From Bdellovibrionales bacterium (lineage in GTDB: Bacteria; Bdellovibrionota; Bacteriovoracia; Bacteriovoracales; Bacteriovoracaceae), in NCBI GenBank assembly GCA_018646675.1, contig JABGUH010000040.1, forward strand, positions 62,001 to 126,000: a DNA stretch of 64,000 nucleotides, in the 5' to 3' direction. Positions 20,404 through 36,096 of the stretch are shown one piece after another. Both the position numbers and the translations under genes were made by a program. Each line of letters opens with the position of its first letter. The stretch's first letter is position 1. The notes under the pieces were generated by a model. The model was not told where the DNA came from. It did no database searches and saw only the letters and a list, made by a program, of their open reading frames with translations.

Positions 20404-21675
20404 CTAGAATTGCCAGTTAGCCGCAATCGTTGCACTCTTCTCTGTGTGCTTGGTGGTGATAGTGTCAGCAGCATTGTTATAAGTAGCGACTGTTTCAACT
20501 TCTGGAGAGTAGACAAAAGCTAAGTCTATTGAGAAGTTTTTAGTACAGTCATGTCCGAGACCAAAAGTAATGTGTGAATCACTAGTGGCAGGGAATCCAG
20601 CTCCATTTAGTAGATTAATAGCCTTGGTATCAGACTTCAAAGCTTTACTACCAACAGGAGCATCTCCCATGCTATATCCAAAACGAAGATCATTCTTACC
20701 AATATTATATGCCAATCCAAAAGAGAAGATATCTTGATCAACCCACTTAAACTCTTTATACCCTGTAGCATCACTCCACTTAACCTGCTTATAATCAAAG
20801 GTTGCAGTCAAAGCATTCAATACATAAGATACACCAAGTCCCATCTCCGCTGGTTGCTCAAGTATGTCACTAGTAATAATTGTACTAACACCAAAGTCAG
20901 CAGCAGCATTGGTTAACTGCTTGGAGTATTCCATCTCAATTGCGGACTGATAGTTGAATCCAAAAGTGAAGTTATTAAATTGATAGGCTACACCTAAATC
21001 AAAGCCATAACCTAGGTCATCACTGGTTCCTGTTCCCTCAGAACCAATCTGTCCCCAGCTATCTCCAGTAGTAGTACAATTTGGAACAACACCACCAGCA
21101 GGACAGCGAATCTGCATACTACGATCATAAGACATACCCAACGCCCCGTACATAATGGCCACACCAACACCAAGGGATAAGTTACTATTCACCTTGTAAG
21201 CTAGTGTTGGAACAAACTTCATCATACTAAGAATTGTTGATAGACGATAAAGACCATCTCCAGAATTTCCAAGCTCAGCATCACCGGCATCAGTACCACG
21301 ATAATCAACTCCACTTCCACCTGTTCCATAAGCTCCCAATCCGAAATAAAGTTTATCATTGATAGCTTGAACTAAACCAATCGCTGGAATCATCGCTCTA
21401 TCAACTGCACTTGTCTTTTCAGTATATGTGGCCCTATTCGAAGAAACCTCTGGAACAAAATAAGTACCAGCAAAACTAAAACTAAACCCTTTATTATAAG
21501 TCAAAAGAGCTGGGTTTTTTAGAACACTCTCTGCGCCCATTGGTTGGGCAATACCTGTTCCACCCATTGCACGTGATACTGCACCGTATCCAATGAAGTT
21601 ATCACCCTGAGTTGCCTGGGAGACCACTGGGGTCAGTAGTGTGATCGTCAATAGAACTAGCAGTAATTTTTGCAT
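20404..21675 (-). CDS. OmpP1/FadL/TodX-family outer membrane protein
   Basis: A 423-residue beta-barrel protein of the hydrophobic-compound transporter family. A Sec signal occupies residues ~1-21. The N-terminal hatch signature is present: GYGAVSRAMGGTGIA and, slightly later, SVLKNPALLTY. Amphipathic strands follow to a C-terminal Phe (ATIAANWQF), the usual BAM targeting signal. Two Cys (near 190 and 200) lie in one extracellular loop. A strong ribosome site (AGGAGTGAAGAG) precedes the ATG. The likely role is uptake of long-chain fatty acids or other hydrophobic compounds across the outer membrane. Confidence 0.88.
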   Translation of the reverse strand: MQKLLLVLLTITLLTPVVSQATQGDNFIGYGAVSRAMGGTGIAQPMGAESVLKNPALLTYNKGFSFSFAGTYFVPEVSSNRATYTEKTSAVDRAMIPAIGLVQAINDKLYFGLGAYGTGGSGVDYRGTDAGDAELGNSGDGLYRLSTILSMMKFVPTLAYKVNSNLSLGVGVAIMYGALGMSYDRSMQIRCPAGGVVPNCTTTGDSWGQIGSEGTGTSDDLGYGFDLGVAYQFNNFTFGFNYQSAIEMEYSKQLTNAAADFGVSTIITSDILEQPAEMGLGVSYVLNALTATFDYKQVKWSDATGYKEFKWVDQDIFSFGLAYNIGKNDLRFGYSMGDAPVGSKALKSDTKAINLLNGAGFPATSDSHITFGLGHDCTKNFSIDLAFVYSPEVETVATYNNAADTITTKHTEKSATIAANWQF

Positions 21676-21929: not shown

Positions 21930-24566
21930 ATGGGTTTAAAGAGACGATTTATGCCAAAAGAGGTGGAAGCGAAACCGATGGCAGAGAAGCGTAAACTAGA
22001 GCTAGTAAAACCGAGAGCTGAACTACCTGAGAATGAACCCAATATTAGTCTTAGTGAACAGCTAGCAACTATTCACCAGTTGAATGTCAAGCACAGCAAC
22101 CAACAGGAGAGTAGTGACGGCTGGGAGTTCTCCTATCAATCACAAATAAAAATATTAAGAATGGTCAATCATATCTCTAGTGACCAAGAGCTAACCCTCA
22201 CCCAGCTTATGCAAGGAATTCTGGAGATTGTTGTCACTACCAGCTCGGCTGAACTTGGTAGTCTGTGGGTAATTGATCCCGATGAAAAAAATGTTAGCTG
22301 CAAGGTCGCCTTCGGTAGCGGAGCCAAGCAGATAAAAGGCAGCTCCATTCCAATGGGTAAAGGACTGGTGGGAACAGTTGCCCAAAGTAACCGTGGGGTA
22401 ATGATCGCTGATACCCATCAAGAGCAGCACCGATTAGATCAGATCCATGATCGAATTGAAGGTGTTACAATCAACTCAACAATCGTCGTGCCGCTAACCG
22501 ACGCCGGTAAATCATTGGGTGTTTTGCAAATCATCAATCGCACTGATCAAAAATTACTAAATCTGGAAAATCGGTCCATGTTAGAGGATATCTCCTCCAT
22601 TATGGCAATGCACCTGGCAACCTCACGGGCCAAACGGGGACTACAGGACATCCAAAAACGTCTGAACACCTTTAGAGATTTAAATGAGGACTTTAGCTCT
22701 ACCTTAGAGCTAGATCGCCTCCTGTCGATCGTTCTTACTCGAGCAATTTCGCTACTGGGAGCAGTAGTTGGATCTGTCTGGTTGAGAGAGGAAAACGGCG
22801 ATGGGATTGAGTGCCATGTCGCGGAAGGCCCGACCAAGGATCAGGTGATTGGAGTTAAAGTTAAAAATGGCATGGGAATTGTTGGTTGGGTCGTGGACAA
22901 CTGTGAACCAATTATCGTTGAAGACTGCTCAAAAGATAGCCGTTTCTCTAAAGCGATGGACAAAAAGATCGACTTTGTCACAGAAACGATGATTACTGTC
23001 CCACTTCAAGTGAAAGGGGAGAGCATTGGAGCGATTCAAATTATCAACAAAAAAAATCGAGGTCATCTATTTGATCAAGAGGATCTGGATCTAATGACTC
23101 TCTTTGCTGCCAGCTCAGCGATGTATATTAAAAATGCCCGTCTCTTCTCAGCAGAGAAAAAGGCAAAAGAGCTATCAGCACTAATTGAAATCAGCAAGGA
23201 GATTGTCTCCACACTCGATTTAGACTGTGTCTTAATGTCAGTAGTAAACCTTGCTTCCAACATTATCCCCTATCAACGAGCAGCCATATCATTAGAAAAA
23301 CGGGGCGATGAAGGGGTCTATCAACTACGAGCAATTAGTGGTGAAAATCAGGTCGATTGTGATCTGGAGGAAAACAGTAAATTATCGATTCTGCATAACC
23401 TAATGGCACAAAACAGCTCACAAATTCATGTTAATGATCGTGAAGCTTATCTGCAAACTGATGGCTCAATTGAACAGCTAAAAGATTATATGACTAAGTA
23501 TCAACTACAGTCATTCTGGGGACAGGTTTTCGAGGATGACCAGGGAATGCTGGGAATCATCACCATGGAATCGGATGAAACCAATATGATCATTGAGTCC
23601 CGGCAAGAGCTGCTCTCAATTTTGGTCGCCCAATCAACGGTAGCGCTACGAAATGCCAGCCTATACAACACGATACCTAGTAGTAACATCCTAGGAAAAA
23701 TGAAGGAGGGCCCCTTAAACACCCTCTTTCATTTAAATAAGGTCCCTCCACTCAAGCTGATAAAGTATGCCTCTGTGATGATTGCGATTGTGTTAAGCCT
23801 AATTTATCTGCCAATGCCATATAATATCTCGTCTAACATTGAGATCCTACCTGTCACGAATACACACTACTCCTACACAAGTGGGCGAGTACAAAAGGTG
23901 CTGGTCCAAGAGGGGCAGCACGTTAAAAAAGGAGATCTGCTAATTGAACTGGATGTGGCCAGCCAAATTGTCGAACTAAGAAAAAAGGAAGCCAATCATG
24001 CTAAAGTTATCACCGAGATGCTGAAGGCTCGCAGTGAAGACCGGATCGCTGACTACAAAATAAAGGAGCGTGAAAAATTCTCTATTGATGCTGAGATTGA
24101 ACTACTTCAGATGAAAATCAGTAGCTCAAAAGTTGTAAGTTCCAGCGATGGGGTAGTTATCAGTAACAATCTAGATGATCTAATCGGTATGCCAGTTAAT
24201 TTTGGGCAGGAGCTAATCAAGGTAGGTAACACCAAACAGCTCTATGTCCAATTTGAGGTACCAGAAGATGATCTCTCATTTATTCATGAGGGACAAGAAC
24301 TTAAGTTTAAAGTTTTTAGTCTCCCCTCCCACAGTTTTGGCGAAGGAATCAAGATCAAATCAGTTGCCGGTGAGGCTCGTCCACTAATGGAGGGAGATAA
24401 GGATAAGTACTTTTTTGCCAAAGCGATGATTAACTACCAAAAGGATAGCACCAAACTACGGGCCGGAATGACAGGACGAGGAAAAATATACTCCGACTGG
24501 CAACCGGTTGGTTTTGTACTGTTTAACCGTATTTTCCGCTTTATTACAATGGAACTACTCTTCTAG
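21930..24566 (+). CDS. Triple-GAF, single-span HlyD-like adaptor protein
   Basis: An 878-residue protein with an unusual order. Residues 1-80 are charged; GAF domains lie at about 90-230, 235-405 and 412-578 (for example SLWVIDPDEKNVSCKVAFGSG and SVWLREENGDGIECHVAEGP). One membrane span follows at about 612-630, then a HlyD/biotinyl-lipoyl-like adaptor at 645-860 (GRVQKVLVQEGQHVKKGDLL; LYVQFEVPEDDLSFIHEGQ). GAFs would be cytosolic sensors, the HlyD part periplasmic. The last residues, MELLF, echo the C-terminus of the neighbouring M50 protein (MDLFF). It converges on the free HlyD gene with a 4-nt overlap. The inferred role is a signal-responsive inner-membrane component of the export system described for 21.9-33.6 kb. 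Confidence 0.8.
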   Translation: MGLKRRFMPKEVEAKPMAEKRKLELVKPRAELPENEPNISLSEQLATIHQLNVKHSNQQESSDGWEFSYQSQIKILRMVNHISSDQELTLTQLMQGILEIVVTTSSAELGSLWVIDPDEKNVSCKVAFGSGAKQIKGSSIPMGKGLVGTVAQSNRGVMIADTHQEQHRLDQIHDRIEGVTINSTIVVPLTDAGKSLGVLQIINRTDQKLLNLENRSMLEDISSIMAMHLATSRAKRGLQDIQKRLNTFRDLNEDFSSTLELDRLLSIVLTRAISLLGAVVGSVWLREENGDGIECHVAEGPTKDQVIGVKVKNGMGIVGWVVDNCEPIIVEDCSKDSRFSKAMDKKIDFVTETMITVPLQVKGESIGAIQIINKKNRGHLFDQEDLDLMTLFAASSAMYIKNARLFSAEKKAKELSALIEISKEIVSTLDLDCVLMSVVNLASNIIPYQRAAISLEKRGDEGVYQLRAISGENQVDCDLEENSKLSILHNLMAQNSSQIHVNDREAYLQTDGSIEQLKDYMTKYQLQSFWGQVFEDDQGMLGIITMESDETNMIIESRQELLSILVAQSTVALRNASLYNTIPSSNILGKMKEGPLNTLFHLNKVPPLKLIKYASVMIAIVLSLIYLPMPYNISSNIEILPVTNTHYSYTSGRVQKVLVQEGQHVKKGDLLIELDVASQIVELRKKEANHAKVITEMLKARSEDRIADYKIKEREKFSIDAEIELLQMKISSSKVVSSSDGVVISNNLDDLIGMPVNFGQELIKVGNTKQLYVQFEVPEDDLSFIHEGQELKFKVFSLPSHSFGEGIKIKSVAGEARPLMEGDKDKYFFAKAMINYQKDSTKLRAGMTGRGKIYSDWQPVGFVLFNRIFRFITMELLF

Positions 24567-25297
24567 TTGAGCTTAACATTGACCATGGTTCCAGGCTTTA
24601 GACGATAGGCTCCCTGCTTGCTGCGAGGGTTGGGAAGATTTAATCTAACCCTAACGGTGCCACTGGTTTTATCAACCACTGGAGCAATATAAGAGATCAT
24701 TCCATTAAAGCTATCCTTAGCGTCCAGCTCAGTTGTAAATAATAACCTTTGCCCCTGCTTCAATTTTGATGCCGCCTTAGCTGCAATATCTAACTCAATA
24801 ATCAACTTGCCTAGATTAATTACCTCAAATATTTTCTCTCCACTACCGACCATCTCTCCCCTCTTGATAAATTGTTTGGTCACCACTCCTGAGATGGGAG
24901 AGACTACTTTAGTGCTCCTTAAATTATAACTTTTCAGCTCAAAAATGGTCTTCTTTTTCAAGTAGATATTTTTCTTTTGTAAAATCTCTTCTGAGGAGAC
25001 AAATTTTTTCAACTGTTTGGTCTTTAAGTAGTCTTTCTCAGCTGTTTTATACTCCACACCCGCCAAGCGATGTTCTAAAACCTCCTGTTCATCATCTATT
25101 ACCGCCAAAACATCTCCGGCTTTAACCTGCTCCCCCTCGATAACCAACAACTTTACAATTTCACCCTGACTCTTAGACTTGATTAGTGACTCATCTTCTC
25201 CGGCCAAAACTCCAGTCACCAATTCAGCCTGCGCGCCAGTAATTGATAGAAAACAGCAAAGTACAATTAATTTCAAAAGATGTTTTTTAATTAGCAT
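24563..25297 (-). CDS. HlyD/RND-type periplasmic adaptor (membrane fusion protein)
   Basis: A 244-residue adaptor with a Sec signal (residues 1-24, ending AQA). The lipoyl half-motifs are EIVKLLVIEGEQVKAGDVLAV near 45 and SPISGVVTKQFIKRGEMVGSG near 135, separated by a short helical hairpin. The beta-barrel part is LIIELDIAAKAASKLKQGQR, ending in the family's RLKPGTMVNVKL. It begins 9 nt after the M50/HlyD fusion gene on the same strand, so the two are one transcription unit. It probably bridges inner-membrane parts to a TolC channel. It is short for the family, as a reduced hairpin would give. Confidence 0.85.
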   Translation of the reverse strand: MLIKKHLLKLIVLCCFLSITGAQAELVTGVLAGEDESLIKSKSQGEIVKLLVIEGEQVKAGDVLAVIDDEQEVLEHRLAGVEYKTAEKDYLKTKQLKKFVSSEEILQKKNIYLKKKTIFELKSYNLRSTKVVSPISGVVTKQFIKRGEMVGSGEKIFEVINLGKLIIELDIAAKAASKLKQGQRLLFTTELDAKDSFNGMISYIAPVVDKTSGTVRVRLNLPNPRSKQGAYRLKPGTMVNVKLN

Positions 25298-25306
25298 ATT
25301 ATAATC

Positions 25307-27424
25307 CTAGAAGAATAGATCCATGCGCAACACTCCGGCCAGTTTTACGCCTATAAGTTGTACCATCGGAAGTCGTCTTCCAATAATTTTCGCCTTTCCT
25401 GCCATCCCCGGGCGAAGATCACCAGGGTTGGTTACTTCGATCTCAGCTAAATATTTTTTTAGTTTAGGATTTGTAGGGTCACTAATACTGATTTGACGAA
25501 TTTTTTCCACTGTTCCTTGATAGGTGGTATAGGGCTTGGCATGCAGTTTAAATTTGAGCGGCTGACCAGATTTCACAAAACGAATTTCCTGCTCGCCAAT
25601 CTCCACCACTGCTTTTAAACGTTCAATCCCCAATACTTTAAATATCTCATCCCCCTCTTTAAAGTAGCTATTTAACCGCCTGAGTTGCTGGTTAAATGAG
25701 AGGATTGCTCTTCCTTTGTCCCGTTCTGAATACTTTAGCAATAGAGATGATAGCTGTAGATCTTTCTGCTTAAGACTCATCTTTTCGGCAGCAATCTCCT
25801 TGCGCAAATTATCCACCTGTGCCCGATCTTCCACGAGGCTTTTGCGTAATTTAGCCTCTAATTTTTTCACTTTCCAGTCAGTAATTTTCCGATCATAGGG
25901 AAGAGAGATATTCTCAATTCGGGCAATCTTATCTCCGGGTCCAACCAAGTTACCATCGAGCTTGTAGATCTCAACCATTTTACCACTTGCTTGGGCACGA
26001 ACAACTCTGGTGAATTCCGGATCTAGCGAACAGTCACCGTAAATATTATAGTTAACCGGAATCGCCAATAGCATCAAACCGAAAAAAAAGGCGATTCCCA
26101 TTAAAAGCCGATTTCTCTTTTTCTGAAAAAATGAGATATTTCGCATGTACCAAGTTGCTAGAAATTTTCCACTACTAGTAACATACCCTCCAAATATTTT
26201 CCAACCGACCCAAAGAGAGATGAGAAAGCCAGTACCATAAAAATAGTCAATTAATAGCCCTTGGGCCATCTTAAACAGACCGGTTAACAGGCCCACCATC
26301 CAGAAGAAAGAGCAGATTGCATAGCCCAGTAGTATTTTCTTATCTCTGGTGGTCGCGGCATAATCTTCTTCCGGCATACCAAACAAGTACCTTTTAGTTA
26401 GATATTTAAGGTAGTCAAAAGAGTCTACTTTGAGGTTGGGGACACCAGTCAAGTCAGAGAATAGATAGTAGCCATCTAACTTAATTAGAGGGTTAAAATT
26501 AAATAGAACGGTAGAGATTGAGCAGATAGTCATTACTTGAAAACTAACCAGATGAATCATAGTATTAGGGTTGGTCAACCACCAAATGTAGGCGCAGATA
26601 GAGCCGATGAAAAATTCTATATAGCCACCAGCGATAGTAACCATAATCTGTTTCCATTTTTTATCAAATAGCCAAGCATCATTGACGTTGCAATAGAGAC
26701 AGGGCTGAAAAAATAGTAGCAGAAAACCAATTTCGTGTACTTCTCCACCATAACGCTTACAAGTCAATCCATGACCAAATTCATGAATAGCGATCGTAGC
26801 GTAGATAGTCACCCATAGAATAACCATATTTACAAATGACATCTGATTAAAGGAGAAGAGGTCTCGCATTCCACTCTCAAACTCACTCCAATGAGAGAGA
26901 ATGATAATCACTGCTCCCAGCATTATCAGAGAAGAGAAAATAACAAACCCTCTGGTCCAGATCCACCAGATTTTATCAATGTACTTATCAAATAGTTTGT
27001 CTGGATCAATCACCGGAAAACGCTTGTACATCAAAGAGCCCTTTTTGGCCAAAAGCTGACTTTTACGACTCTCTTTCATCTTTTCTACCAGCATAACATT
27101 GGTATCTTTTTTGGATTTCTCCAACAGATTCATCTCATCTAAAGAACCCTTAAAATCTTCAACCGTTTGCAAGTCAATTGGATCTAGAGTATGAGAGCTA
27201 TTGAATTTTTCAACCATCTCCTGCATCGTTGATCTACTATCAAACAGTTCAATAATTTTCCACTCTTCGTGATCAAAACGGAAGAACTGATCTTTTAGCG
27301 GATCTTTGACCACATAATTGATGCGATCCACCTGCTTCATACGTGAAATTTTAAGATCATGGCGCAGTCGTGGACGTAGAACAACATCCTCATCGTAATT
27401 TGAATTTCCCCGAATATCACTCAT
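25307..27424 (-). CDS. PqqD-like / M50 zinc metalloprotease / HlyD fusion protein
   Basis: A 705-residue fusion from the ATG at 27424; a TTG-started frame reaches 27517 but adds an atypical N-terminus. Residues ~15-110 look PqqD-like (YVVKDPLKDQFFRFDHEEW then IIELFDSRSTMQEMVEKF), a fold that binds leader peptides in RiPP systems. Several membrane spans surround a complete M50 site: HEFGH near 214 and NPLIKLDGYY near 311-320. A further span leads into a periplasmic HlyD-like part (VRAQASGKMVEIYKLDGNLVGPGD ... a long coiled coil ... DLRPGMAGKAKI). It ends in MDLFF. It is divergent from a TolC gene 112 nt away and co-transcribed with the HlyD gene. The inferred role is substrate recognition, cleavage or export of tagged proteins. 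Domain calls are firm except PqqD (moderate). Confidence 0.8.
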   Translation of the reverse strand: MSDIRGNSNYDEDVVLRPRLRHDLKISRMKQVDRINYVVKDPLKDQFFRFDHEEWKIIELFDSRSTMQEMVEKFNSSHTLDPIDLQTVEDFKGSLDEMNLLEKSKKDTNVMLVEKMKESRKSQLLAKKGSLMYKRFPVIDPDKLFDKYIDKIWWIWTRGFVIFSSLIMLGAVIIILSHWSEFESGMRDLFSFNQMSFVNMVILWVTIYATIAIHEFGHGLTCKRYGGEVHEIGFLLLFFQPCLYCNVNDAWLFDKKWKQIMVTIAGGYIEFFIGSICAYIWWLTNPNTMIHLVSFQVMTICSISTVLFNFNPLIKLDGYYLFSDLTGVPNLKVDSFDYLKYLTKRYLFGMPEEDYAATTRDKKILLGYAICSFFWMVGLLTGLFKMAQGLLIDYFYGTGFLISLWVGWKIFGGYVTSSGKFLATWYMRNISFFQKKRNRLLMGIAFFFGLMLLAIPVNYNIYGDCSLDPEFTRVVRAQASGKMVEIYKLDGNLVGPGDKIARIENISLPYDRKITDWKVKKLEAKLRKSLVEDRAQVDNLRKEIAAEKMSLKQKDLQLSSLLLKYSERDKGRAILSFNQQLRRLNSYFKEGDEIFKVLGIERLKAVVEIGEQEIRFVKSGQPLKFKLHAKPYTTYQGTVEKIRQISISDPTNPKLKKYLAEIEVTNPGDLRPGMAGKAKIIGRRLPMVQLIGVKLAGVLRMDLFF

Positions 27425-27510
27425 TATAGTTAAAGCACCCACTATCTCTGATTTAGCATATATCTTATCGAACCTTTGACATTTAAGGGGGACTTTTTTT
27501 AGGGGAAATA

Positions 27511-27537
27511 ATGGCAAATCTAAGTTATGATTGGTGA
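27511..27537 (+). promoter_or_regulatory. Eight-codon leader frame coupled to the first TolC gene
   Basis: ATG at 27511 follows a good ribosome site (AGGGGAA, 27501-27507) and encodes MANLSYDW then TGA. The A of this TGA is also the A of the ATG at 27537, which starts the TolC gene. That gene has no good ribosome site of its own, so coupled translation through the leader is plausible. Confidence 0.35.
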
Positions 27538-29018
27538 TGAAAAACCTGACATACCTGACTTTTATTATCGGATTGTTTCACCAGCTCTTGGCCGCACCGG
27601 CCCCGATCACTGTTCGCGAACTGGCACTTGCAACACTAAAAAATAACTTTGATCTCAAGCTATCCAAGATAGCAATCGATGAAAAGAAGACTGTTATTGA
27701 GCAGGAGATTGGTGACTATGACTACCGACTTAGCTCCTCTCACTCCCGTGCAAAAAACAATACTCCCTCCTCATCCTCGCTTGATGGTGCCGGAAATGCC
27801 TCTTCGGTCAAAAGCAGTTCGACCTCCTCTTCATTAACCCTGGCCAAGAAGTTTAATACTGGGACTGAGATATCTATTCCCTATAACGTTACAATTACCA
27901 AATCAAACTCTACTACTCGGACAATTGCTAAAACCTATGAGCCCTCCTTGACACTCTCAATAACACAACCACTACTTAAAGGATTTGACGCAACCTATGT
28001 CGCACGTGATATTGAAGAGGCGCGGATGGATGTGGAGATCGAGCAACTCAAGAACTTGGAAGCGATAAACAAAAAGCTACAGGAGGCACTGGAACTATAC
28101 TTTGATACAATTCTTAAGCACGAGCAAATTGGAATTCGTAGAACAGGTAGTAAAAATGCCAAACAAAATATGGCATTTATTACTGAAAAACATCGGCTCG
28201 GCAAAGCTTCACAGATCGAGTATCTTGAGGCAAAAACAGCATTTCAAAAGACTGAAGATTCACTATTAACAGCACAAATAGACTATCAAAATATACGAGA
28301 TCAACTGGCGCTACTAGTATTTGGTGATTCCAATCACCAAATTGATTTTATCAACATCTCTCAGCTTTTACACAACCTCCCTCCCTTGATCGCCAATCAA
28401 GAGGTAACAGAGCTAATTCAGCAAGCAATTACTGATCGAGACAAAGTTAAGCGATACCAATTAACACTCGCCAAGGCGGGATTTAAGTTGGCCAATGCTG
28501 TACGCGACCGTCTACCTGACCTAGACCTGGCAGCAGATCTGACCCATAAAGGGCTCGGTAGTTCACTCTCCTCAGCCAATCGCCATTTAACCGATGGACG
28601 CTACCGCTCTTGGAATACCTCTTTAACCATCAGTAAGCCTTTAATGGCATATGCCAGTACTGCTTACTGGCAGCAACAAAAGCTGAAACATCAACAAGAG
28701 ATGATTCGCATGGAGCAGGCAAGACGGGATGTACGGCTAGAGGTACAAAAATCTCTAAGAAAACTGGCCAGTGGCAAGATTCAGATTAAGGCATTTAGTG
28801 CTGCATTGGCAGCTGAAGAGAAGAAGTATGCAGAGCTTAAGATACGTCATCAACAGGGAAGGGTCTCTACCTACGAGTTAAACCAAGGACTCCAAGCAGT
28901 GCAAAATACCGAGGTATCACTACTTAAGGCAAAAGTTGGCCATATAAAAAATTACTACGCTAAAGCATCGGCCACTGGTAAGTTGCTATCAATGATTGGA
29001 GTCTCCATTAACAGGTGA
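27537..29018 (+). CDS. TolC-family outer membrane channel (first copy)
   Basis: An outer-membrane efflux protein of about 493 residues. I choose ATG 27537 because the preceding TTG and GTG codons have no better support. Residues 1-21 form a Sec signal (ending LLAAPA). Two repeated OEP halves follow, with long heptad-rich helices (REALATLK-type VRELALATLKNNFDLKLSKIAI, and LRKLASGKIQIKAFSAALAAEEKKYAELK) and the HRLGKASQIEYLEAKTAFQ and RHQQGRVSTYELNQGLQ signatures typical of TolC. A Ser/Thr-rich surface loop is near 75-105. It is divergent from the M50/HlyD operon and overlaps the second TolC gene at the 3' end by 30 nt. Confidence 0.87.
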   Translation: MKNLTYLTFIIGLFHQLLAAPAPITVRELALATLKNNFDLKLSKIAIDEKKTVIEQEIGDYDYRLSSSHSRAKNNTPSSSSLDGAGNASSVKSSSTSSSLTLAKKFNTGTEISIPYNVTITKSNSTTRTIAKTYEPSLTLSITQPLLKGFDATYVARDIEEARMDVEIEQLKNLEAINKKLQEALELYFDTILKHEQIGIRRTGSKNAKQNMAFITEKHRLGKASQIEYLEAKTAFQKTEDSLLTAQIDYQNIRDQLALLVFGDSNHQIDFINISQLLHNLPPLIANQEVTELIQQAITDRDKVKRYQLTLAKAGFKLANAVRDRLPDLDLAADLTHKGLGSSLSSANRHLTDGRYRSWNTSLTISKPLMAYASTAYWQQQKLKHQQEMIRMEQARRDVRLEVQKSLRKLASGKIQIKAFSAALAAEEKKYAELKIRHQQGRVSTYELNQGLQAVQNTEVSLLKAKVGHIKNYYAKASATGKLLSMIGVSINR

Positions 29019-30458
29019 CTTGTATAATTTTCCATTTAACGCCATCAACTGATTATAAGTCTGCCCCAGTTTAACCAATTTGGAGTTACGTTCCTGGGAT
29101 ATCTTTAATAGATCCTGTTGTGCTTGAGCTAACTCCAAAGACGATACATGCTGTAACTTGTACTGCTCAAGTTTAAACTCTAATAGGGCGTGTGCCACCT
29201 CTCGTTGTCCATCAATTTGGGCCAGCCCCTCTTCTAACTTCTTCATCTCGGCCCTAGTAGAGCGCCATTTCTGCAATTTTTGGCGAAAAAGAGATCTACG
29301 AGTAGTGACTGCTTTTCTTAGTCGCGCCTGTTTTGCTGCAACACTTCCAAGCGCTTGGTGATTACCAAATATCCAACTGAAATTAAGTGCAACTTCCCAG
29401 TTAAAATAACGATTGGTTGCGACTTGGTCAAATGCAGTAGCTGCCTCACTTCCTAGTCCACTATTAGAGAGCGCTATTTCCAAATCTAGCTCCGGCAATA
29501 AACCATTTTTTGCCTCAAACAACTCCACCTGTCTCTCTCGATAACCAATCTTCTCCACAATAATGGACGGCAGATGACCCAGATCCATCGGAGCGAAGGG
29601 AGATAGGGGGTGACGGTCAGTAAGTGTGACCTTTGGTAAAATAGTTGTTGTGCCGGCAATGTGTGGCGGAAAAATCTCTTTTTGTAGCAGTATATCCTGA
29701 TTATATGCTTTTAACTTGGCCACTTCTAAAAGCCCCACCTTTTTCTGATAGAGTGCCTGTGAGTTTAAGTAATCCACTCGGCTTAACTTCCCAGTTTTAT
29801 AGCGCGCGTGATCAAAATCGAGAATCGACTTTGAATACTCCATATCCCGCTCTTTTAACTCCACCTCTTTCCTTAACTCATAGAGCTTAAGCAGATACTC
29901 CAATGCCTTTAAGACACTCTGATCTAGCCGGTCTGCCAGTTTGGCTTGATACTTCTCCTGCTTTAATAGTGCCAGATTATAATCAGTAGTGTTCACACTC
30001 TGACCACGCCCTTTTAGCAGCGGTATATTTAAACTCAAAGATGCACCCATCTGCTTTCTCTGGGTAAAAAGTGTCGTAGCAGAACTGGTATCATACTCTA
30101 AAAACTGGATGCTCATATCCAGCTCTACTCCATTTTGAAACAGTCTGGTTGCCCCCACCGATGGGCCGAAGGTGCTCTGACGATATGACTGGTTCTCATA
30201 GATAGAGGCGGAAGGAAGATGTTCACTTTTCTGCCCTATATTTACCGAAAGATTCCAATCAAATGGATAGAGTGATGCTGGAATTTCACTCTTGGCCAAC
30301 GCGAGGTTGATACGTGCAAGCTCCACTCGGGTACTATTATTCACTACCAGCTCAACTACTTGCAATGAATCCAAGTATTGAATGTTTGCAGCGACTGCAA
30401 ATGAAAGCAACAGAGTTGTCAAAAGAGTAACGTGCCTAATTATCACCATCCCAACCAT
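28989..30458 (-). CDS. TolC-family outer membrane channel (second copy)
   Basis: A 489-residue outer-membrane efflux protein. The second ATG (30449) is an equally plausible start and gives a compact Sec signal (ending FAVAA). It has two OEP halves with the signatures ARYKTGKLSRVDYLNSQALYQ and KLEQYKLQHVSSLELAQAQQ, and heptad helices. It lies directly downstream of the repeat-protein gene on the same strand, behind a terminator-like hairpin. A TATAAT hexamer (complement of 30457-30462) sits just before the start. Pairing with the first copy is unusual because TolC forms homotrimers; two substrates or a mixed duct are possible. Confidence 0.87.
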   Translation of the reverse strand: MVGMVIIRHVTLLTTLLLSFAVAANIQYLDSLQVVELVVNNSTRVELARINLALAKSEIPASLYPFDWNLSVNIGQKSEHLPSASIYENQSYRQSTFGPSVGATRLFQNGVELDMSIQFLEYDTSSATTLFTQRKQMGASLSLNIPLLKGRGQSVNTTDYNLALLKQEKYQAKLADRLDQSVLKALEYLLKLYELRKEVELKERDMEYSKSILDFDHARYKTGKLSRVDYLNSQALYQKKVGLLEVAKLKAYNQDILLQKEIFPPHIAGTTTILPKVTLTDRHPLSPFAPMDLGHLPSIIVEKIGYRERQVELFEAKNGLLPELDLEIALSNSGLGSEAATAFDQVATNRYFNWEVALNFSWIFGNHQALGSVAAKQARLRKAVTTRRSLFRQKLQKWRSTRAEMKKLEEGLAQIDGQREVAHALLEFKLEQYKLQHVSSLELAQAQQDLLKISQERNSKLVKLGQTYNQLMALNGKLYKSPVNGDSNH

Positions 30459-30464
30459 TATAGC

Positions 30465-30495
30465 AAAAAAAACGGGGAAGATTACCCTCCCCGTT
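30465..30495 (-). terminator. Rho-independent terminator of the repeat-protein gene
   Basis: AACGGGG (30471-30477) pairs with CCCCGTT (30489-30495). On the minus strand the stem is followed by a run of eight T (complement of 30465-30472). It lies 70 nt after the repeat-protein stop and immediately before the second TolC gene, so it may attenuate rather than fully stop transcription into that gene. Confidence 0.75.
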
Positions 30496-30564
30496 CTTTA
30501 TGCCTTTTTTTCCGCCTACAACTGGTTCACGGTCAGACCGCGAAACCTAGATTTCACTCTCTAA

Positions 30565-33500
30565 CTAGTTTTGATAGTTAGGCCCGTCTGGGTTGTAGTT
30601 AGGATCTTGGTATTGATCGTGATGCTCGCCACCGTCCATAAAGTCCGCAGACTCGGCAGAGATAACGAAGCTACCATTCTCAAAGTACTGAGTATCATCT
30701 GGCAGATCAATGGTGAATGATCCATCCGTACCAATATTAATTGGATCCGGAGCAAACTCATTAACCCAATTGTTGGCCATATGAACTGTGCTGCTGTCAG
30801 CATTCCACTCCATTCCCTCTGCCAAATTAACCGTCATCGACCCATTATCATTTAGGGTATAGTCAATCCCGGGAGGGATCTCATCGCTATGCATATCCCC
30901 CGCCGGGAAGGTTAAGCTATTAGCATCAGCGTTGTAAGTAGTTCCCTCGGGAACACCAATGTTCATCGTACCATCACCATTAAGTTGCACCTCTTCTGGA
31001 ATATCCTCTCCTAAGTGCTCCATCGCTTGGTCATGACTAAAAGTGATCGTTCCTGCTTCACCATTAACCACGATACCTTCAGGTGGCTCAACAGTTACCG
31101 ACCCGTCTGGATTTGATGATGCCCAGTCCGGTCCACCATCATTTGCGTAGTCTGGTTCTGGATGCTCCATGAATTCAGCCTGATGCTCGGGGATGGTACA
31201 AGAACCATCATCATAGTAGTAGGTATCCGACGGCATGTTAACAGTACAATTACCTTCAGTATCAAATTGACATGGCTCGGGAGTTACCTCATTGGTCCAG
31301 TAGTTGTCCATATGTACTTGGCCAGCATCAGCATCATATTGTATTCCATCTGGAATAGTTACCACAACAGAACCATCAGGATTAACAGTATATTCAATCT
31401 GATTTGGAATCTCAGCCGGGTTCATCTCTCCAGTAGGAAAGGTTAAGCTGCCGGCAGCTGGATCGTAACTTGTCCCCTCTGGTAGGTCGACGCTCATAGT
31501 GCCATCTGGATGAAAATGCATCCCATCATCAACATAGTTATCAAAATTCTCATGAATATACTCGGTACTCATCTGACAAGTTCCGGCATCGCCATTAAAA
31601 GTCATTCCATCATTGGCCGGAACAGAGTAAGAGCCATCAGGGTTGCACTCAAACATCTCACAACCGTTGACCATTGGAGGTTCAGGATTCTCCATAAAGT
31701 CACAGGAGTACTCCGGCACAGTACATGATCCGTCCTCATGCCACTCAGTTGTGTTTGGCATCTGCACTTCATAGTGTCCGTCGGGATAGATCTCGACCGG
31801 CTCTGGAGTCAACTCGTTAGTCCAGTAGTTATTAAAGTGAACCTCACCGCTGTCTGCAAGATAATCTACTCCAGCGGGAAGTGTAACCGTTACACTGCCA
31901 TCCTCTCCTTGAGTAAAGTTAAACTCAGGAGGAACATCATCAACACCTGGCCCCTCCGACCCTACAGGAAAACTTAGCGTGCCACTAGTGGCATCAAAAC
32001 TTATATCATCCGGCAGTTTTATATTCATCGTGCCATCTGGATTAATTGTAACATCCTCAGGTATGTGCTCCTCAAACTCAGTTTGAGCAAACTCATGATC
32101 AAACTTCACCATATTGTCTTCAGGGTAACAGTTACACTCCTCGGGAGGATGAAAAGTATATGAGCCATCTGGATTATACTCACTCCAAGTAACATCAGCG
32201 ACATAGTTGGGGGCATCATGCTCGACAAAATCTAGATCTTCTGAGGGAATTGATAATGTCCCATCTTGATAGTACTCCGTGGACTCTGGCAGAGCGACTA
32301 CCATAGTACCGTCATCTGCCATATGCATATTATCAGGCAGCATCTCGTTGGTGGTAAAATTATCAAAAGTAACACTATTGGCATCAGAATTATAATCGCA
32401 CCCATCCGGCATAGTCGCGGTCATCGATCCATCAGGATTGATGTGGCCATCGATATTATCTGGCAGCTGCTCGATCGAGAACTCACCAGGAGGTACTGTT
32501 ACATAATTGTAATCCACATTGTAGTCGCATCCCTCAGGTAGGGTGTACTCCATTGTTCCTTCTGTTGTAAAATTAACGTTATCATCTATTGGCATAATCT
32601 GCTCAATTGCATCTGTTTGGATAACAGCAATGCCTCCCGAAACATCTACCCCTTCAGGAGGAGTAAAGGTACACGATCCATCTGGGTTATATTCTGCGCA
32701 ATCCATCTGATCAATATACTCAGGTGGAGGTGCATCCATAAAGGTGGCCGCTTCTGGTTCCATCGTAATAGTACCATCATCATTATATTCGACTCCGTTG
32801 TCTGGAAGAGTAACATCCACTGATCCATCAGGATTAATCGATACATTGTCTTCAACCAGTATATTAGCAATCTCATTTGAGAAGTTAACTGTCCCAGCAT
32901 CGGCATTGTACTCCATCCCATCGGCAGGCATCGGAACTGCAATCGATCCATCTGGCGCTGCATAAGCCTCAAACTGCTCTGGAATTTTTTCTAACTCCAC
33001 ACTCTCAGCAGGAAGAATCATCGCATTTAATCCTTCGGAATAGGTTGAGCCCTCAGGAAGTTCAACTGTCATACTACCATTGCTCTCAATCGTAACATCA
33101 TCACCCAAGGGCAACTCTTCATTGGCAACTTCAACGGGGAAGTTGGCAACACCATCATCAATTGTCACTCCTTCAGGAGGAGTAATAGTAAAGGTGCCAT
33201 CGGCATTTGATTCAACCCAATCCGGCTCGGCCCAAGTCTCACCCTCTCCAGCATCATGACTATACTGCTCGTCCCCTTCATAAAACTCATCTTCACTGTC
33301 AGCTTCCATCTGGGGGCCATCTTCCCCATCAGCTGGTGCCGGCTCACCATCAGTTTCATAACTGGCAGTATCAGCACTCTCATCTAGATACTCTCCACCG
33401 GAGGTACCGGAGCTACCAGTTGTTCCCGCTTCAGTCTGAGTCTGCTCAACAGCACCTTCACTGCTATCTGCTTGCTGATCTACACTGGTATCAATCGATT

Positions 33501-33618
33501 CTGCCATCCCAGGATCGACTAAGCCTCCCCCCACCATACCTGGGGCAATTCTCTCTTCAAGCTTCTTGGATTTAAGTTTTCTTGTACTCGCTTTATTTTC
33601 TGGTTTTTTTGCGGCCAT
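30565..33618 (-). CDS. Giant acidic repeat protein with LEERIAPG N-terminal tag
   Basis: A 1017-residue protein of unknown family. Residues 1-27 are basic and end KKLEERIAPG (residues 18-27), followed by GMVGGG; there is no Sec signal or membrane span. Residues 28-136 are a Ser/Gly/Asp/Glu linker. From 137, super-repeats begin at 137, 310, 481, 658 and 835 (lengths 173, 171, 177, 177, 173), and the protein ends at the first residues of a sixth. Each unit holds four ~43-residue modules of the type NPDGS-x-TV-x-LPEG-x-x-Y. After Arg23 there is no Arg and only three Lys, so the body is extremely acidic and may bind calcium. The ribosome site AAGGAG is strong. The tag recalls LEPR-XLL proteins. 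It is the likely cargo of the neighbouring M50/HlyD/TolC machinery (inference). Confidence 0.8.
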   Translation of the reverse strand: MAAKKPENKASTRKLKSKKLEERIAPGMVGGGLVDPGMAESIDTSVDQQADSSEGAVEQTQTEAGTTGSSGTSGGEYLDESADTASYETDGEPAPADGEDGPQMEADSEDEFYEGDEQYSHDAGEGETWAEPDWVESNADGTFTITPPEGVTIDDGVANFPVEVANEELPLGDDVTIESNGSMTVELPEGSTYSEGLNAMILPAESVELEKIPEQFEAYAAPDGSIAVPMPADGMEYNADAGTVNFSNEIANILVEDNVSINPDGSVDVTLPDNGVEYNDDGTITMEPEAATFMDAPPPEYIDQMDCAEYNPDGSCTFTPPEGVDVSGGIAVIQTDAIEQIMPIDDNVNFTTEGTMEYTLPEGCDYNVDYNYVTVPPGEFSIEQLPDNIDGHINPDGSMTATMPDGCDYNSDANSVTFDNFTTNEMLPDNMHMADDGTMVVALPESTEYYQDGTLSIPSEDLDFVEHDAPNYVADVTWSEYNPDGSYTFHPPEECNCYPEDNMVKFDHEFAQTEFEEHIPEDVTINPDGTMNIKLPDDISFDATSGTLSFPVGSEGPGVDDVPPEFNFTQGEDGSVTVTLPAGVDYLADSGEVHFNNYWTNELTPEPVEIYPDGHYEVQMPNTTEWHEDGSCTVPEYSCDFMENPEPPMVNGCEMFECNPDGSYSVPANDGMTFNGDAGTCQMSTEYIHENFDNYVDDGMHFHPDGTMSVDLPEGTSYDPAAGSLTFPTGEMNPAEIPNQIEYTVNPDGSVVVTIPDGIQYDADAGQVHMDNYWTNEVTPEPCQFDTEGNCTVNMPSDTYYYDDGSCTIPEHQAEFMEHPEPDYANDGGPDWASSNPDGSVTVEPPEGIVVNGEAGTITFSHDQAMEHLGEDIPEEVQLNGDGTMNIGVPEGTTYNADANSLTFPAGDMHSDEIPPGIDYTLNDNGSMTVNLAEGMEWNADSSTVHMANNWVNEFAPDPINIGTDGSFTIDLPDDTQYFENGSFVISAESADFMDGGEHHDQYQDPNYNPDGPNYQN
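30598..33210 (-). repeat. Five tandem ~520-bp coding super-repeats
   Basis: Five units of 171-177 codons, each subdivided into four modules of about 40-48 codons, fill this stretch. The units are diverged at the nucleotide level, suggesting an old duplication rather than recent slippage. Module order is fixed: a PPEG module, an LPEG module followed by a LTFP strand, a module ending in N-x-x-TNE, and a module with Y-x-DGS and an acidic tail. Confidence 0.85.
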
Positions 33619-33973: not shown

Positions 33974-33984
33974 CTAGCGAGAGG
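33965..33984 (-). terminator. Hairpin overlapping the slipin stop codon
   Basis: CCTCTCGC (33965-33972) and GCGAGAGG (33977-33984) form a perfect 8-bp stem with a GCTA loop, across the slipin stop. No long T-run follows on the minus strand, so it may serve mRNA 3' protection or weak termination. Confidence 0.5.
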
Positions 33985-34729
33985 AGGAGTCAAGCTTGTT
34001 TAAAAAATCAACCGGCAGTGGAAAGAAAGTGGTGCTTTTATTATCACCACTGGAGATCTCCTTCATGGTATCAAGGTAACGCAAGACAATAGCATTCTTT
34101 TGCTTACCTAATATCTCAGCTGCCTCCGCTAGCTTAATTGATGCTTCCAGTTCCCCTTCAGCTGAAATAACTTTTGCCCGCTTGTCACGCTCTGCCTCAG
34201 CCTGCTTGGCCATCGCCCGCTGCATCTCAATTGGTAGATCAATTGCCTTCACTTCGACTGCGCTAACCTTTACTCCCCATGGCTCAGTTTGGTCATCTAA
34301 AATGGTTTGCAATTTTGCGTTAATCTCATCCCGCTGAGATAATATTTCATCCAACTCAAATTGTCCGATAACCGAACGAAGAGTAGTTTGAGATATCTGT
34401 CCTGTCGCCAGTAAAAAATCCTCCACGGCCACGATTGAAAGTTCCGGATTGTTGACACGAAAGTAGACTACTCCATTTACTTTCAAAGTAACATTATCTC
34501 GAGTGATGATATCCTGGGAGGGAATATCCATCGTGACTGTACGCAAGTCCACTCGTCGCATTTTTTCCAAACCTGGGATCAAGATAATCAATCCCGGGCC
34601 CCTTACTCCAGTAAACCTTCCAAGACGAAAGACCACTCCCCGCTCATATTCATTCAGAATTTTAATCATACTAAAAAGTAGTACCAATATAATAATGATA
34701 AATGGAAATGGCAGAACAGAAAGAAACAT
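33974..34729 (-). CDS. Slipin/stomatin-like SPFH protein
   Basis: A 251-residue SPFH/band-7 protein that forms large inner-membrane oligomers. An N-terminal span lies at residues 4-22. The conserved [32 protein letters not shown] and [21 protein letters not shown] follow. The coiled-coil motif [22 protein letters not shown] is diagnostic of slipins. Slipins typically pair with a membrane serine protease of the NfeD type, and that partner is encoded 30 nt upstream on the same strand, so the pair forms a standard operon for membrane quality control. Confidence 0.92.
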
Positions 34730-34758
34730 AGTAACTCCTTCGATTGGTTATAATTAAT

Positions 34759-36096
34759 CTATATGGTCAAGGTCATTTGGCTCTTATCCTCGCCAGTAAT
34801 AATACAATACTCTCCTGGATTAACTCTCTTGTTTGAAACTGCTTTCCAGATCTCACCTTTCAGTTTTACCTGATAGACATAACAGTAGTCACTGTTATCA
34901 AGTTCCTCAAGTAATGAGATGATACAACACTCCTTTCCGAGGTGGGTAAAAAAATCTCTTCCCTGCTTTTTACCTTTAATGCGATCTCGATAAAGAAAAA
35001 TACCGAGAAACATTACTACCAAAGATACTGCCGCCACCGTCGAATAGACCAGAGAGCGACTAACTTCGATATAGACATCATCTGTGCGATAGAGAAAAAG
35101 TGATCCCGTCAGTAACGCGGCCAACCCCGCAAGGGATAAAATTCCATAACTGGTAATGTAGATCTCCATAATTAGCAGTACCATCGAAAGCAACATCAAC
35201 CCTAACGCCCCTAAGTTAAGGGGCAAGACCTGAAATCCAATCGCAGCTAATATTAGTGCGATGGTTCCCAGGCTGCCGGCGATCAGAGATCCTGCCACTT
35301 GAAACTCTAGGTAGATTAGTGCCGCTCCGGCCAAAAATAGAATATAAGCAGTGTTAGGGTCACCCAAGATATTTAGCAGCCTCTGGCCTAAATCCATTGG
35401 ATGAATAGTTATTTGAGGAGCATCTAACTCTAATTTTACTACTCTTCCTCGAATTGCGACCTCTGCCCCTTTAAGTGACTTAAATAGGGACTCATTACTA
35501 GTAACAATCCGATTTATAATTCCAGATTTCTCTGCTTCCCGAGCATTATAAGAGGCTGCTTCCGAGACCATCTTACCAAAGAGTTTACCATTTCTACCTC
35601 TCGCTTCACTTAGACTAGTGACCAGAGCAGTCAGATCATTAACCACCTTGCTCTTCATATCCTTACTGGCAATATCTTTGCCCATCTCCACCGGAGTAGC
35701 TGCTCCAATATTTGTCCCTTCAGACATAAACAGTAGGTGTCCACCACTGGCAATAATCGCTCCAGCACTTGTCGCAGAGGCTCCCTCAGGTGTTATCCAG
35801 ATAACCGTCGGCAACGAGCTGCTACCGATTGTAGCCAAAATCTTTTTGGTCGAGGAGACCAAGCCACCTGGCGTATTAAGCTTTATCAGAACAAGATTAA
35901 ATTTATCACGCGTAGCTTGGGCATATCCAGACTTGATATAACTTAACGTTCCGGGATTAATTGAGGAGTTAATGGTTAACTCTAATATCTTACTTACCGG
36001 ATAGGAAGTTACCTCTCCCCCTATTACTATAAAAGGGAGAAAAATGGCCATCCAAAGTGCCAAAAAGAGGTTAATGTGATCACGATAAGTATTCAC
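34759..36096 (-). CDS. NfeD1b-type membrane serine protease (ClpP-class)
   Basis: A 445-residue membrane protease partner of slipin. It has an N-terminal export signal (to ~27), a ClpP/crotonase-like protease domain at ~35-230 with the catalytic Ser in SATSAGAIIASGG (the archaeal 1510-N type uses a Ser-Lys dyad), four or so membrane spans at ~245-360, and a C-terminal OB-fold NfeD domain. The annotated start is a GTG only 2 bp from the TTG of the divergent gene, so the real start could be slightly downstream. Confidence 0.88.
   Translation of the reverse strand: MNTYRDHINLFLALWMAIFLPFIVIGGEVTSYPVSKILELTINSSINPGTLSYIKSGYAQATRDKFNLVLIKLNTPGGLVSSTKKILATIGSSSLPTVIWITPEGASATSAGAIIASGGHLLFMSEGTNIGAATPVEMGKDIASKDMKSKVVNDLTALVTSLSEARGRNGKLFGKMVSEAASYNAREAEKSGIINRIVTSNESLFKSLKGAEVAIRGRVVKLELDAPQITIHPMDLGQRLLNILGDPNTAYILFLAGAALIYLEFQVAGSLIAGSLGTIALILAAIGFQVLPLNLGALGLMLLSMVLLIMEIYITSYGILSLAGLAALLTGSLFLYRTDDVYIEVSRSLVYSTVAAVSLVVMFLGIFLYRDRIKGKKQGRDFFTHLGKECCIISLLEELDNSDYCYVYQVKLKGEIWKAVSNKRVNPGEYCIITGEDKSQMTLTI

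Follow-up and report, generated by a model that had tools for sequence, protein, structure and literature searches.

Candidate leader-guided export of tagged repeat proteins by an RRE/PqqD-like-M50-HlyD gene cluster in Bacteriovoracaceae and other bacteria

Introduction

Type I secretion systems (T1SS), including those for LapA-type giant adhesins, export large repetitive substrates without Sec signals through HlyD-type adaptors and a TolC-type channel, and their signals are mostly C-terminal. Here we describe a six-gene cluster of a Bdellovibrionales bacterium of the family Bacteriovoracaceae that shares these adaptor, channel and substrate features, unlike T1SS lacks a gene for an ATP-binding cassette (ABC) protein, has in its place a fusion of a domain resembling the recognition element (RRE) of ribosomally synthesized and post-translationally modified peptides (RiPPs), an M50 metalloprotease and an HlyD adaptor, and encodes a cargo whose conserved tag is N-terminal. 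The cluster occupies positions 21930-33618 of the window, by which we mean the whole 64,000-nucleotide stretch that was analysed (GenBank assembly GCA_018646675.1, contig JABGUH010000040.1, positions 62,001 to 126,000). Its genes are designated A to F, with C encoding the fusion protein and F the cargo.

Peptidase-containing ABC exporters carry a C39 cysteine protease and act on double-glycine leaders, and the leader is recognised by the exporter itself. The cluster is similar in that, in LEERIAPGMVGGG, GG follows the tag, and differs in having an M50 metalloprotease, no ATPase and a long cargo; examination of C alone finds no C39 domain, only M50 without an ABC part. Membrane M50 proteases also act on leader-bearing RiPP precursors, as described in PMC10885120 for EpeP/YydH, the daptide HExxH protease and pearlin TglG/TmoG. 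EpeP is thought both to cleave and to export the epipeptide, and its deletion did not fully abolish production (PMC10885120 and PMC12871923). The M50 part of C differs from these enzymes in its fusion to HlyD, its adaptor and channel partners and its linkage to long proteins. The predicted fold of its N-terminal domain is that of RRE/PqqD-like leader binders (TbiB1, TfuB1, PqqD), here joined to a membrane protease-adaptor. Giant cadherin/immunoglobulin (Ig)-repeat proteins of the LEPR-XLL (NF012209) and DUF4347 kinds bear an N-terminal LE.R tag, and the available literature passages on them mention no HlyD or M50 alongside; unlike them, the LEERIAP-tagged F matches no NCBIfam family at E values up to 1, LEPR-XLL included.

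The gene set was not found described in the literature searched (titles and abstract openings, with bioRxiv and most subscription journals outside the scope). The reading that we favor, with moderate confidence, is that an RRE-M50-HlyD gate serves a dedicated pathway of leader-guided maturation and export. Its computed basis is the gene set, a conserved tag, the association of tag and machinery, a predicted RRE-like fold, intact catalytic residues and, in most loci, no linked ABC gene. We class the cluster as a variant of TolC-dependent export that uses leader recognition of the RiPP type, which would become a new class if the M50 protein proves to be the translocation gate. If this reading is true, a machinery is gained for a set of giant surface-type proteins whose N-terminal LE.R tag lacked one in the literature searched, a RiPP leader-recognition principle serves proteins of thousands of residues, and a testable question arises as to how such chains move without an ABC pump; the analysis also points to a Gemmatimonadota family of short RiPP-like peptides.

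Results and Discussion

A putative conduit and a tagged candidate cargo

All six conduit and cargo genes that an earlier note on this DNA had listed as adjacent are present, as judged by open reading frames (ORFs), Pfam and NCBIfam, and the same parts are grouped in four other genera. The absence of an ABC ATPase, also claimed there, agrees with a regular-expression scan, in which no window ORF of at least 100 aa combines a Walker A motif with an ABC signature; likewise there is no resistance-nodulation-division (RND) or major facilitator superfamily (MFS) transporter gene among the six, in a scan confined to the window.

F is strongly acidic (21% Asp+Glu, 1.2% Lys+Arg) and repetitive, with a period of ~177 aa (self-match 0.21 versus at most 0.106 in 50 shuffles). 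Its LEERIAPG is the sole match to the tag pattern in its own draft genome. The description of the cargo as lacking a Sec signal is borne out by hydropathy, with no hydrophobic or Sec-like segment in the first 70 aa (best 19-residue mean 0.82). To call it a giant was generous for 1017 aa, and suits its larger tagged relatives of 2079 aa (L033, LEDRIAP), 2929 aa (G565, LEERIAP) and 4982 aa (G585, LEQRKML).

We propose that the cargo is synthesized with an LE.R tag at its N-terminus (LEERIAP in the window), a tag that would be bound at the inner membrane by the RRE/PqqD-like domain of C and removed or released by its M50 part. The chain would then pass a conduit to which C, A and B each contribute an HlyD part and which a TolC channel completes, and the GAF domains of A may gate this conduit upon a cytosolic signal. 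Export of the cargo by the cluster's own conduit appears probable. Alternatively, Sec or some other general pathway could take the cargo across the inner membrane, with the cluster only processing it and handing it to the outer membrane. TolC and HlyD can work from the periplasm, and proteins already in the membrane are common substrates of M50 site-2 proteases; however, the tag region of F is not hydrophobic and leader binders with the RRE fold are cytosolic, and we regard this route as improbable.

The RRE/PqqD-like-M50-HlyD fusion protein

The AlphaFold2 model of C (mean pLDDT, the per-residue model confidence, 83.5) has an N-terminal domain of three strands and three helices in a winged fold like that of known RREs, with block pLDDT values across residues 11-100 of at least 88 in the domain model and 80-89 in the full model. 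The top six PDB matches with Foldseek are all TbiB1 and TfuB1 chains (probability 1.00, E 1.2e-3 to 1.3e-2), from entries of lasso-peptide leader binders solved with leader peptides. A sequence profile of the domain gives PaaA, PqqD, TfuB1 and TbiB1 among 19 weak PDB matches (best E 0.013). The PqqD domain that the earlier note placed in this protein is upheld as a predicted RRE fold and by Pfam PqqD in 17 of 40 aligned N-terminal domains of homologues, and not by Pfam on the window protein itself, where PqqD is not called. The domain is the likely tag receptor, and we consider it likely that the tag is read there.

The M50 part scores 32.8 bits with Pfam (cut-off 27.2). H214, E215, H218 and D317 are invariant in all 31 aligned homologues and correspond to the HExxH motif and distal Asp of M50, and the part is predicted from these residues to be an intact zinc intramembrane-type protease. 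The CNVNDAW motif is likewise invariant in 31/31, partly by construction because it was one of two patterns used in the tag-blind scan described below. The C-terminal part resembles MacA (3fpp, E 7e-13) and also MexA (1vf7) by Foldseek. With a predicted RRE fold, M50 and a MacA/MexA-like adaptor fold, a single chain can therefore combine a leader receptor with a membrane-bound protease and a periplasmic adaptor. We moved the start of C from the listed TTG at 27517 to the ATG at 27424 because homology begins there.

Among RiPP proteases, C is matched by NF041824 at 2e-49 (168.7 of the 300 bits required) and by NF058609 with 46.3 of 225 bits, below the cut-offs of these daptide/epipeptide M50 equivalogs; three LEPR-type M50 proteins match NF041824 at 1e-34 to 1e-40.

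The tag accompanies the M50-HlyD gene

In a first sample of 59 genomes of the window's family, 14 have some match to C, mostly to its HlyD part, and a long M50 match is present in the window's own genome and in one genome from each of four other genera (split over two contigs in G031). The relatives' C proteins are 48-66% identical to that of the window (35% for the C-terminal piece in the broken assembly G031), and their cargoes 40-53%. The cluster parts stay together in varying gene order, with all six kinds in G023 and G019; the GAF-HlyD gene of G025 lies outside the stretch read, and the G031 contigs end inside the cluster, with neither A nor E seen. Homologues of A also lie near the M50 gene in further genera and phyla.

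A sample of 115 family genomes contains seven with a long PqqD-M50-HlyD gene, and an in-frame LE[ED]RIAP occurs in those same seven, versus 1 of 108 without the long gene (Fisher p 1.8e-10, uncorrected for kinship). A looser pattern is matched in 6/108 genomes, of which only G029 has a strict LE[ED]RIAP; this match is taken as chance because it lies in a short frame without a preceding ATG. Weaker M50 matches without a surrounding adaptor cluster are also present in G039, G008 and G025 (L026:9705-11072, L027:9281-12367 and L028:10064-12331).

A tag-blind scan, in which named genomes were searched with the M50 alignment, yields 39 loci in Bdellovibrionota, Planctomycetota, Gemmatimonadota, Pseudomonadota (Magnetococcales, Alteromonadaceae, Colwelliaceae, Oceanospirillaceae and Betaproteobacteria) and Myxococcota, the last with a single locus in which no tag was found. 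An LE[EDQ]RIAP reading frame is present inside the locus itself in 25 of the 39. At the genome level the tag pattern is found in 29/34 genomes with the M50 gene and its reversed control in 0/34; these genomes account for 35 of the loci (two sharing a genome), the other four being in family genomes G025, G023, G019 and G031, and two of the 34 are also family genomes by equal match coordinates. Across 150 Gemmatimonadota genomes the pattern is found in 13 of 14 with the M50 gene, within 7 kb of it in ten, and in 29 of 136 without (p 1.6e-7). Background is high in this phylum, with a control pattern in 10/150, and at least six of the matches in M50-negative genomes are one unrelated conserved protein. 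As for the remaining M50-positive genomes, the G237 match is that unrelated protein, those of G217 and G289 are distant from the M50 gene, and G162 has none. The background protein has the form W[LE.RIAP]W (L132, L138, L139, L140, L141, L146 and L147), L132 being in G237, and was discarded as a tag. A second LEDRIAP-tagged protein (L117:1501) lies elsewhere in the Alteromonadaceae genome of L056, where one machinery possibly serves two cargoes.

The association of M50-HlyD genes with tagged proteins that the earlier note proposed to look for is present in four phyla. Could chance, or the mere shared ancestry of neighbors, explain it, the tag being an unrelated N-terminal motif? The pattern does arise by chance in GC-rich genomes, as the 29 M50-negative Gemmatimonadota genomes illustrate, but proximity, differing gene orders, the spread over four phyla and the correspondence of tag class with M50 clade rather than host make this explanation very improbable.

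That correspondence is seen on a 54-row M50 tree, on which LEPR-type giants need one change (support 99), RIAP giants one (91) and RIAP peptides two; jointly the three tag classes need two changes, which is the minimum and is reached in 0/200 shuffles. The tree was made by a quick method with SH-aLRT (approximate likelihood-ratio) support only, and 14 of 51 inner branches are open. Eight rows are unlabelled, six (L035, L039, L044, L046, L063 and L066) are labelled by a tag elsewhere in the genome, and the labels of L032 and L042 rest on a tag past the end of the locus. Because Alteromonadales hosts sit in both RIAP and LEPR clades, it is the machinery, not the host, that the tag accompanies. 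The nearest relative of the window's C is in a groundwater Bdellovibrionota genome (L032).

Giant proteins and the wider LE.R tag class

Long-repeat cargoes are found in Bdellovibrionota, Magnetococcales, Alteromonadaceae, Thalassomonas, Oceanospirillum and some Planctomycetota. In these long proteins the tag lies 13-51 residues past the start, preceded by a Lys-rich stretch in the LE[ED]RIAP cases inspected. Long cargoes from several groups (L045, L053 and L038) match Pfam Tcp10_C (DGS-rich beta repeats; L038 below cut-off), and cargoes of this type are possibly single-layer beta fibres. In Alteromonadales and part of the Planctomycetota, more distantly related M50 clusters adjoin giants of 1,881-4,982 aa with related LE.R tags.

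The Alteromonadales, the order of Planctobacterium, were represented by 197 genomes, and 14 of these contain 16 M50-HlyD matches above 200 bits; only such matches were read as M50-HlyD, since the alignment search counts 164/197 genomes, as ordinary adaptors are picked up through the HlyD part. Planctobacterium is the only one of the 14 with LEDRIAP beside M50-HlyD. Twelve of the other 15 loci (in 13 genomes) have a neighboring giant of 1,881-4,242 aa with a related tag (Table 1; that of G464a is cut by the contig end), the other three being G392 and G438, which lie near a contig start, and G442, where no such giant was found. In G476, which has the loosest tag, the genes for M50-HlyD, a GAF-type HlyD (Pfam GAF below cut-off), HlyD, a channel and the giant are consecutive, with ends overlapping or nearly touching. 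The L197 giant beside an M50 cluster scores 23.7 bits with LEPR-XLL (NF012209, cut-off 17), and the giants of L197 and L210 have DUF4347 with cadherin/Ig repeats. The supposition of the earlier note that LEPR-type proteins form part of one scheme with the LEERIAP type is supported, with LEPR-tagged giants adjoining M50 clusters and NF012209 over cut-off in L197. Thirteen pattern matches in Alteromonadales other than Planctobacterium, all of them distant from a long M50 gene or in genomes that lack one, were rejected as tags, as none starts a long protein or lies in a Gemmatimonadota-like peptide; L195 has ELTVEELEDRIAP inside a long frame, in a genome without an M50 match.

The M50 family is present in 18 of 79 Planctomycetota genomes. 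Four giants are cut in the 20 stretches from this phylum, and all three that could be made readable are tagged (LEDRILLS, LEQRKMLT and LEERIAP), the fourth (G538) beginning before the contig; the G542 giant beside the cluster begins with a stretch holding LEDRILLS. Planc_extracel (PF07595), a 20-position model, was considered as a planctomycete form of the tag and is not supported, matching in 1/79 genomes, below cut-off and in a genome without the M50 gene.

The motif [LM]E.[RK] occurs in the first 90 aa of 14/16 ORFs of at least 1500 aa near an M50 gene versus 26/432 control ORFs of 250-799 aa, where both the length limit and the motif were chosen after the first tags had been seen. ORFs were taken within 12 kb of the M50 gene if their start was readable, and 65 of 73 loci kept the M50 frame. 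The two misses are the G476 giant (QEKR) and one G442 frame. Among ORFs of at least 800 aa the motif is found in 23/59, and many of the misses resemble wrong-strand frames in GC-rich DNA.

Short RiPP-like peptides as a possible second kind of cargo

The M50 machinery also adjoins short RiPP-like peptides in Gemmatimonadota and Betaproteobacteria. In Gemmatimonadota the peptides are ~45-60 aa long, their leader closes with the tag, and two or three often occur in tandem near the cluster; they have the form ...LTPEQKxxVRKATGKDAEAxELSVEELEERIAP followed by 3-15 variable residues. Mean pairwise identity (n=28) is 48% over the 30 residues before the tag and 11% over the 3-15 after it; the 28 were kept from 30 frames by a leader-motif filter, which raises the leader identity somewhat and dropped an L060 peptide as one of the two. 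A conserved leader and a hypervariable tail are the leader-core pattern of RiPP precursors. None of four peptides scanned reaches a Pfam or NCBIfam cut-off, and one of five weakly matches precursors of the NHLP (nitrile hydratase leader peptide) type (NF038399 Os1348, 16 of 40 bits). In L041 a PqqD-radical SAM (S-adenosylmethionine)-methyltransferase fusion, a possible modifying enzyme, is encoded upstream of the tagged peptides (L041:1686-4157). The Betaproteobacterial peptide of ~60 aa (...KIEELEERIAPTAVGQLGYEGQPGNQG...) has an internal repeat and lies just upstream of the M50-HlyD gene (L058:9532-9711, L052 and L055), and in the Pseudogulbenkiania locus L058 a 2OG (2-oxoglutarate)-Fe oxygenase gene lies downstream of that gene.

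These peptides raise the alternative that the system is basically a RiPP-like peptide pathway in its Gemmatimonadota form that giants reused later, in which case the M50 protein of the window would merely trim or regulate the repeat protein. The leader-core pattern in multiple copies, the candidate modification genes of L041 and L058 and the resemblance between C and the daptide and epipeptide M50 proteases are in its favor. However, giant-type neighbors make up 28 of the 46 labelled M50 tree rows and cover both LEPR and RIAP forms, on a tree of which the root is not known, and 58/65 loci have additional HlyD-type adaptors near the M50 gene. We consider this alternative unlikely.

ABC exporters and the driving force

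Of 65 loci, 4 have an ABC-like ORF within 5 kb of the M50 gene, one of these ORFs presumably being UvrA, and none is seen in the other 61. Most of the genomes are draft or metagenome assemblies. No LssB-type T1SS ABC protein is over cut-off in 16 of 22 genomes with the M50 gene, including all seven of the family, and one of PrtD type is over cut-off in 0/13, in searches confined to these two models and without that for HlyB; the window's own draft genome has neither LssB nor PrtD type over cut-off and may have an unlinked ABC protein of another type. With so few linked or over-cut-off T1SS ABC exporters, export without a dedicated ABC pump is favored, and these scans weaken the candidacy of an unlinked T1SS ABC protein as a required partner. 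That no ABC motor is involved at all we put forward only tentatively. Two Alteromonadales loci that closely resemble each other have an ABC-2 type ATPase and permease-like pair close to the M50 cluster (L196:5929-9831 and L198:14351-18265).

The principal alternative is that C is only a receptor and leader peptidase, and an unlinked ABC exporter drives translocation, borrowing the HlyD and TolC parts as in type I secretion. A cargo of thousands of residues needs energy, ABC matches occur in every genome searched, an ABC-2 type pair lies ~4.4 kb from the M50 gene in G438 and G464b, and a Vibrio giant combines LEPR-XLL with RTX domains (PMC10868602). This giant indicates that not every LE.R giant need use the M50 route. 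Against the sparse T1SS-type and linked ABC genes described above, we find this alternative rather unlikely.

Several observations weigh against dedicated export through the RRE-M50-HlyD gate, and some of them speak for an ABC exporter. No energy source is visible, an LssB-type T1SS ABC protein is over cut-off elsewhere in 6/22 genomes with the M50 gene, and near-full-length LssB matches fall below cut-off in G025 (370 bits), G148, G159 and G168. Our own channel profiles, which were built on Bdellovibrionota and miss channels that Pfam detects, find TolC near only 12/65 M50 loci; there is no TolC among the ORFs scanned in Gemmatimonadota L041, and with our own profiles three Betaproteobacterial loci yield only the M50-HlyD gene. 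The tag pattern is absent from five of the 34 M50-positive genomes (those of L040, L048, L050, L059 and L068). No tagged giant is present in 16/20 Planctomycetota stretches, several of them short contigs and with short peptides not among the targets, and L255 of that phylum has a 1468-aa ORF with a Sec-like start instead. The RRE assignment comes from predicted structures, with a best Foldseek E of 1.2e-3 and none below 0.001. Tag binding, cleavage, export, gating and the role of the M50 protein as inner-membrane gate are inferred.

The overall proposal of the earlier note, an export system in which the M50 protein replaces the ABC part and recognizes the tag, is partly supported, by the co-occurrence, the conserved tag that tracks the M50 protein, the RRE fold and the lack of a nearby ABC gene in 61/65 loci, and has been widened to RiPP-like peptides. 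A new secretion class, in which an inner-membrane gate that unites an RRE receptor, an intramembrane-type metalloprotease and a periplasmic adaptor in one chain passes giants and RiPP-like peptides through TolC, guided by an N-terminal LE.R signal and without an ABC, RND or MFS motor, has in our view a somewhat less than even chance; it would give a machinery to at least some giants of the LEPR-XLL and DUF4347 types.

Cluster layout and neighboring genes

The genes form convergent and divergent units, with A rightwards, C then B leftwards, D rightwards, and F then E leftwards (Table 1). A has the architecture GAF-GAF(-probable third GAF)-transmembrane segment-HlyD with a single transmembrane segment at about residues 605-634, and is predicted to have its GAF domains in the cytosol and its HlyD, or membrane fusion protein, part in the periplasm. 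B scores 116.8 bits with NCBIfam TIGR01730 (cut-off 94.9). TolC-type genes are identified by Pfam OEP in the window and in 11 further loci with a hand-picked candidate. None of the six proteins matches a PADLOC family, and a defence system was set aside; regular-expression matches to a TolC-binding tip motif in the adaptors are unspecific, and no claim is made from them.

Table 1. Features of the window cluster and of related tagged proteins (window positions unless a locus is given).
Feature	Position	Strand	Basis
A, GAF-HlyD adaptor, 878 aa	21930..24566	+	Pfam GAF (two stretches), HlyD_D23/HlyD_3; hydropathy
B, HlyD/RND-type periplasmic adaptor, 244 aa, signal-like N-terminus	24563..25297	-	Pfam HlyD_D23 3e-25; hydropathy
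C, RRE/PqqD-like/M50/HlyD fusion, 705 aa	25307..27424	-	Pfam M50 and HlyD; alignments; AlphaFold2 model
C, HlyD (membrane fusion protein) part, C-terminal	25328..26068	-	Foldseek
C, D317 (LDGYY)	26474-26476	-	alignment of 31
C, CNVNDAW motif, residues 245-251	26672..26692	-	invariance (see text)
C, HEFGH zinc-protease motif, H214-H218	26771..26785	-	alignment of 31
C, PqqD/RRE-like domain, ~residues 18-100	27125..27373	-	PqqD in homologues; Foldseek
D, TolC-type outer-membrane channel 1, 495 aa	27531..29018	+	Pfam OEP 8.5e-26; probable ATG 27537
E, TolC-type outer-membrane channel 2, 489 aa, downstream of F	28989..30458	-	Pfam OEP 2.7e-14
F, tagged acidic repeat protein, 1017 aa, likely cargo	30565..33618	-	ORF, repeats, homologues beside relatives' clusters
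F, LEERIAPG tag, residues 20-27, after Lys-rich N-terminus	33538..33561	-	sole tag-pattern match in its draft genome
Gemmatimonadota short tagged peptides	L041:6654-7003, L057:6543-6898, L060:6313-6957, and others		
LEPR-tagged giants	G499, G423, G425, G453, G464a, G439		
Giants with other tags	MEPR G454; LEPK G464b; LEQR G414a; LESR G414b; LEAR G323; QEKR G476 (loosest)		

Directly beyond F, at window positions 33974-36096, is an SPFH/Band 7 and NfeD-type membrane protease pair (Pfam), of which no homologue is reported in the relatives' cluster stretches. A FadL/OmpP1-type outer-membrane protein (Pfam) is encoded on the opposite side of the cluster at 20404-21675.

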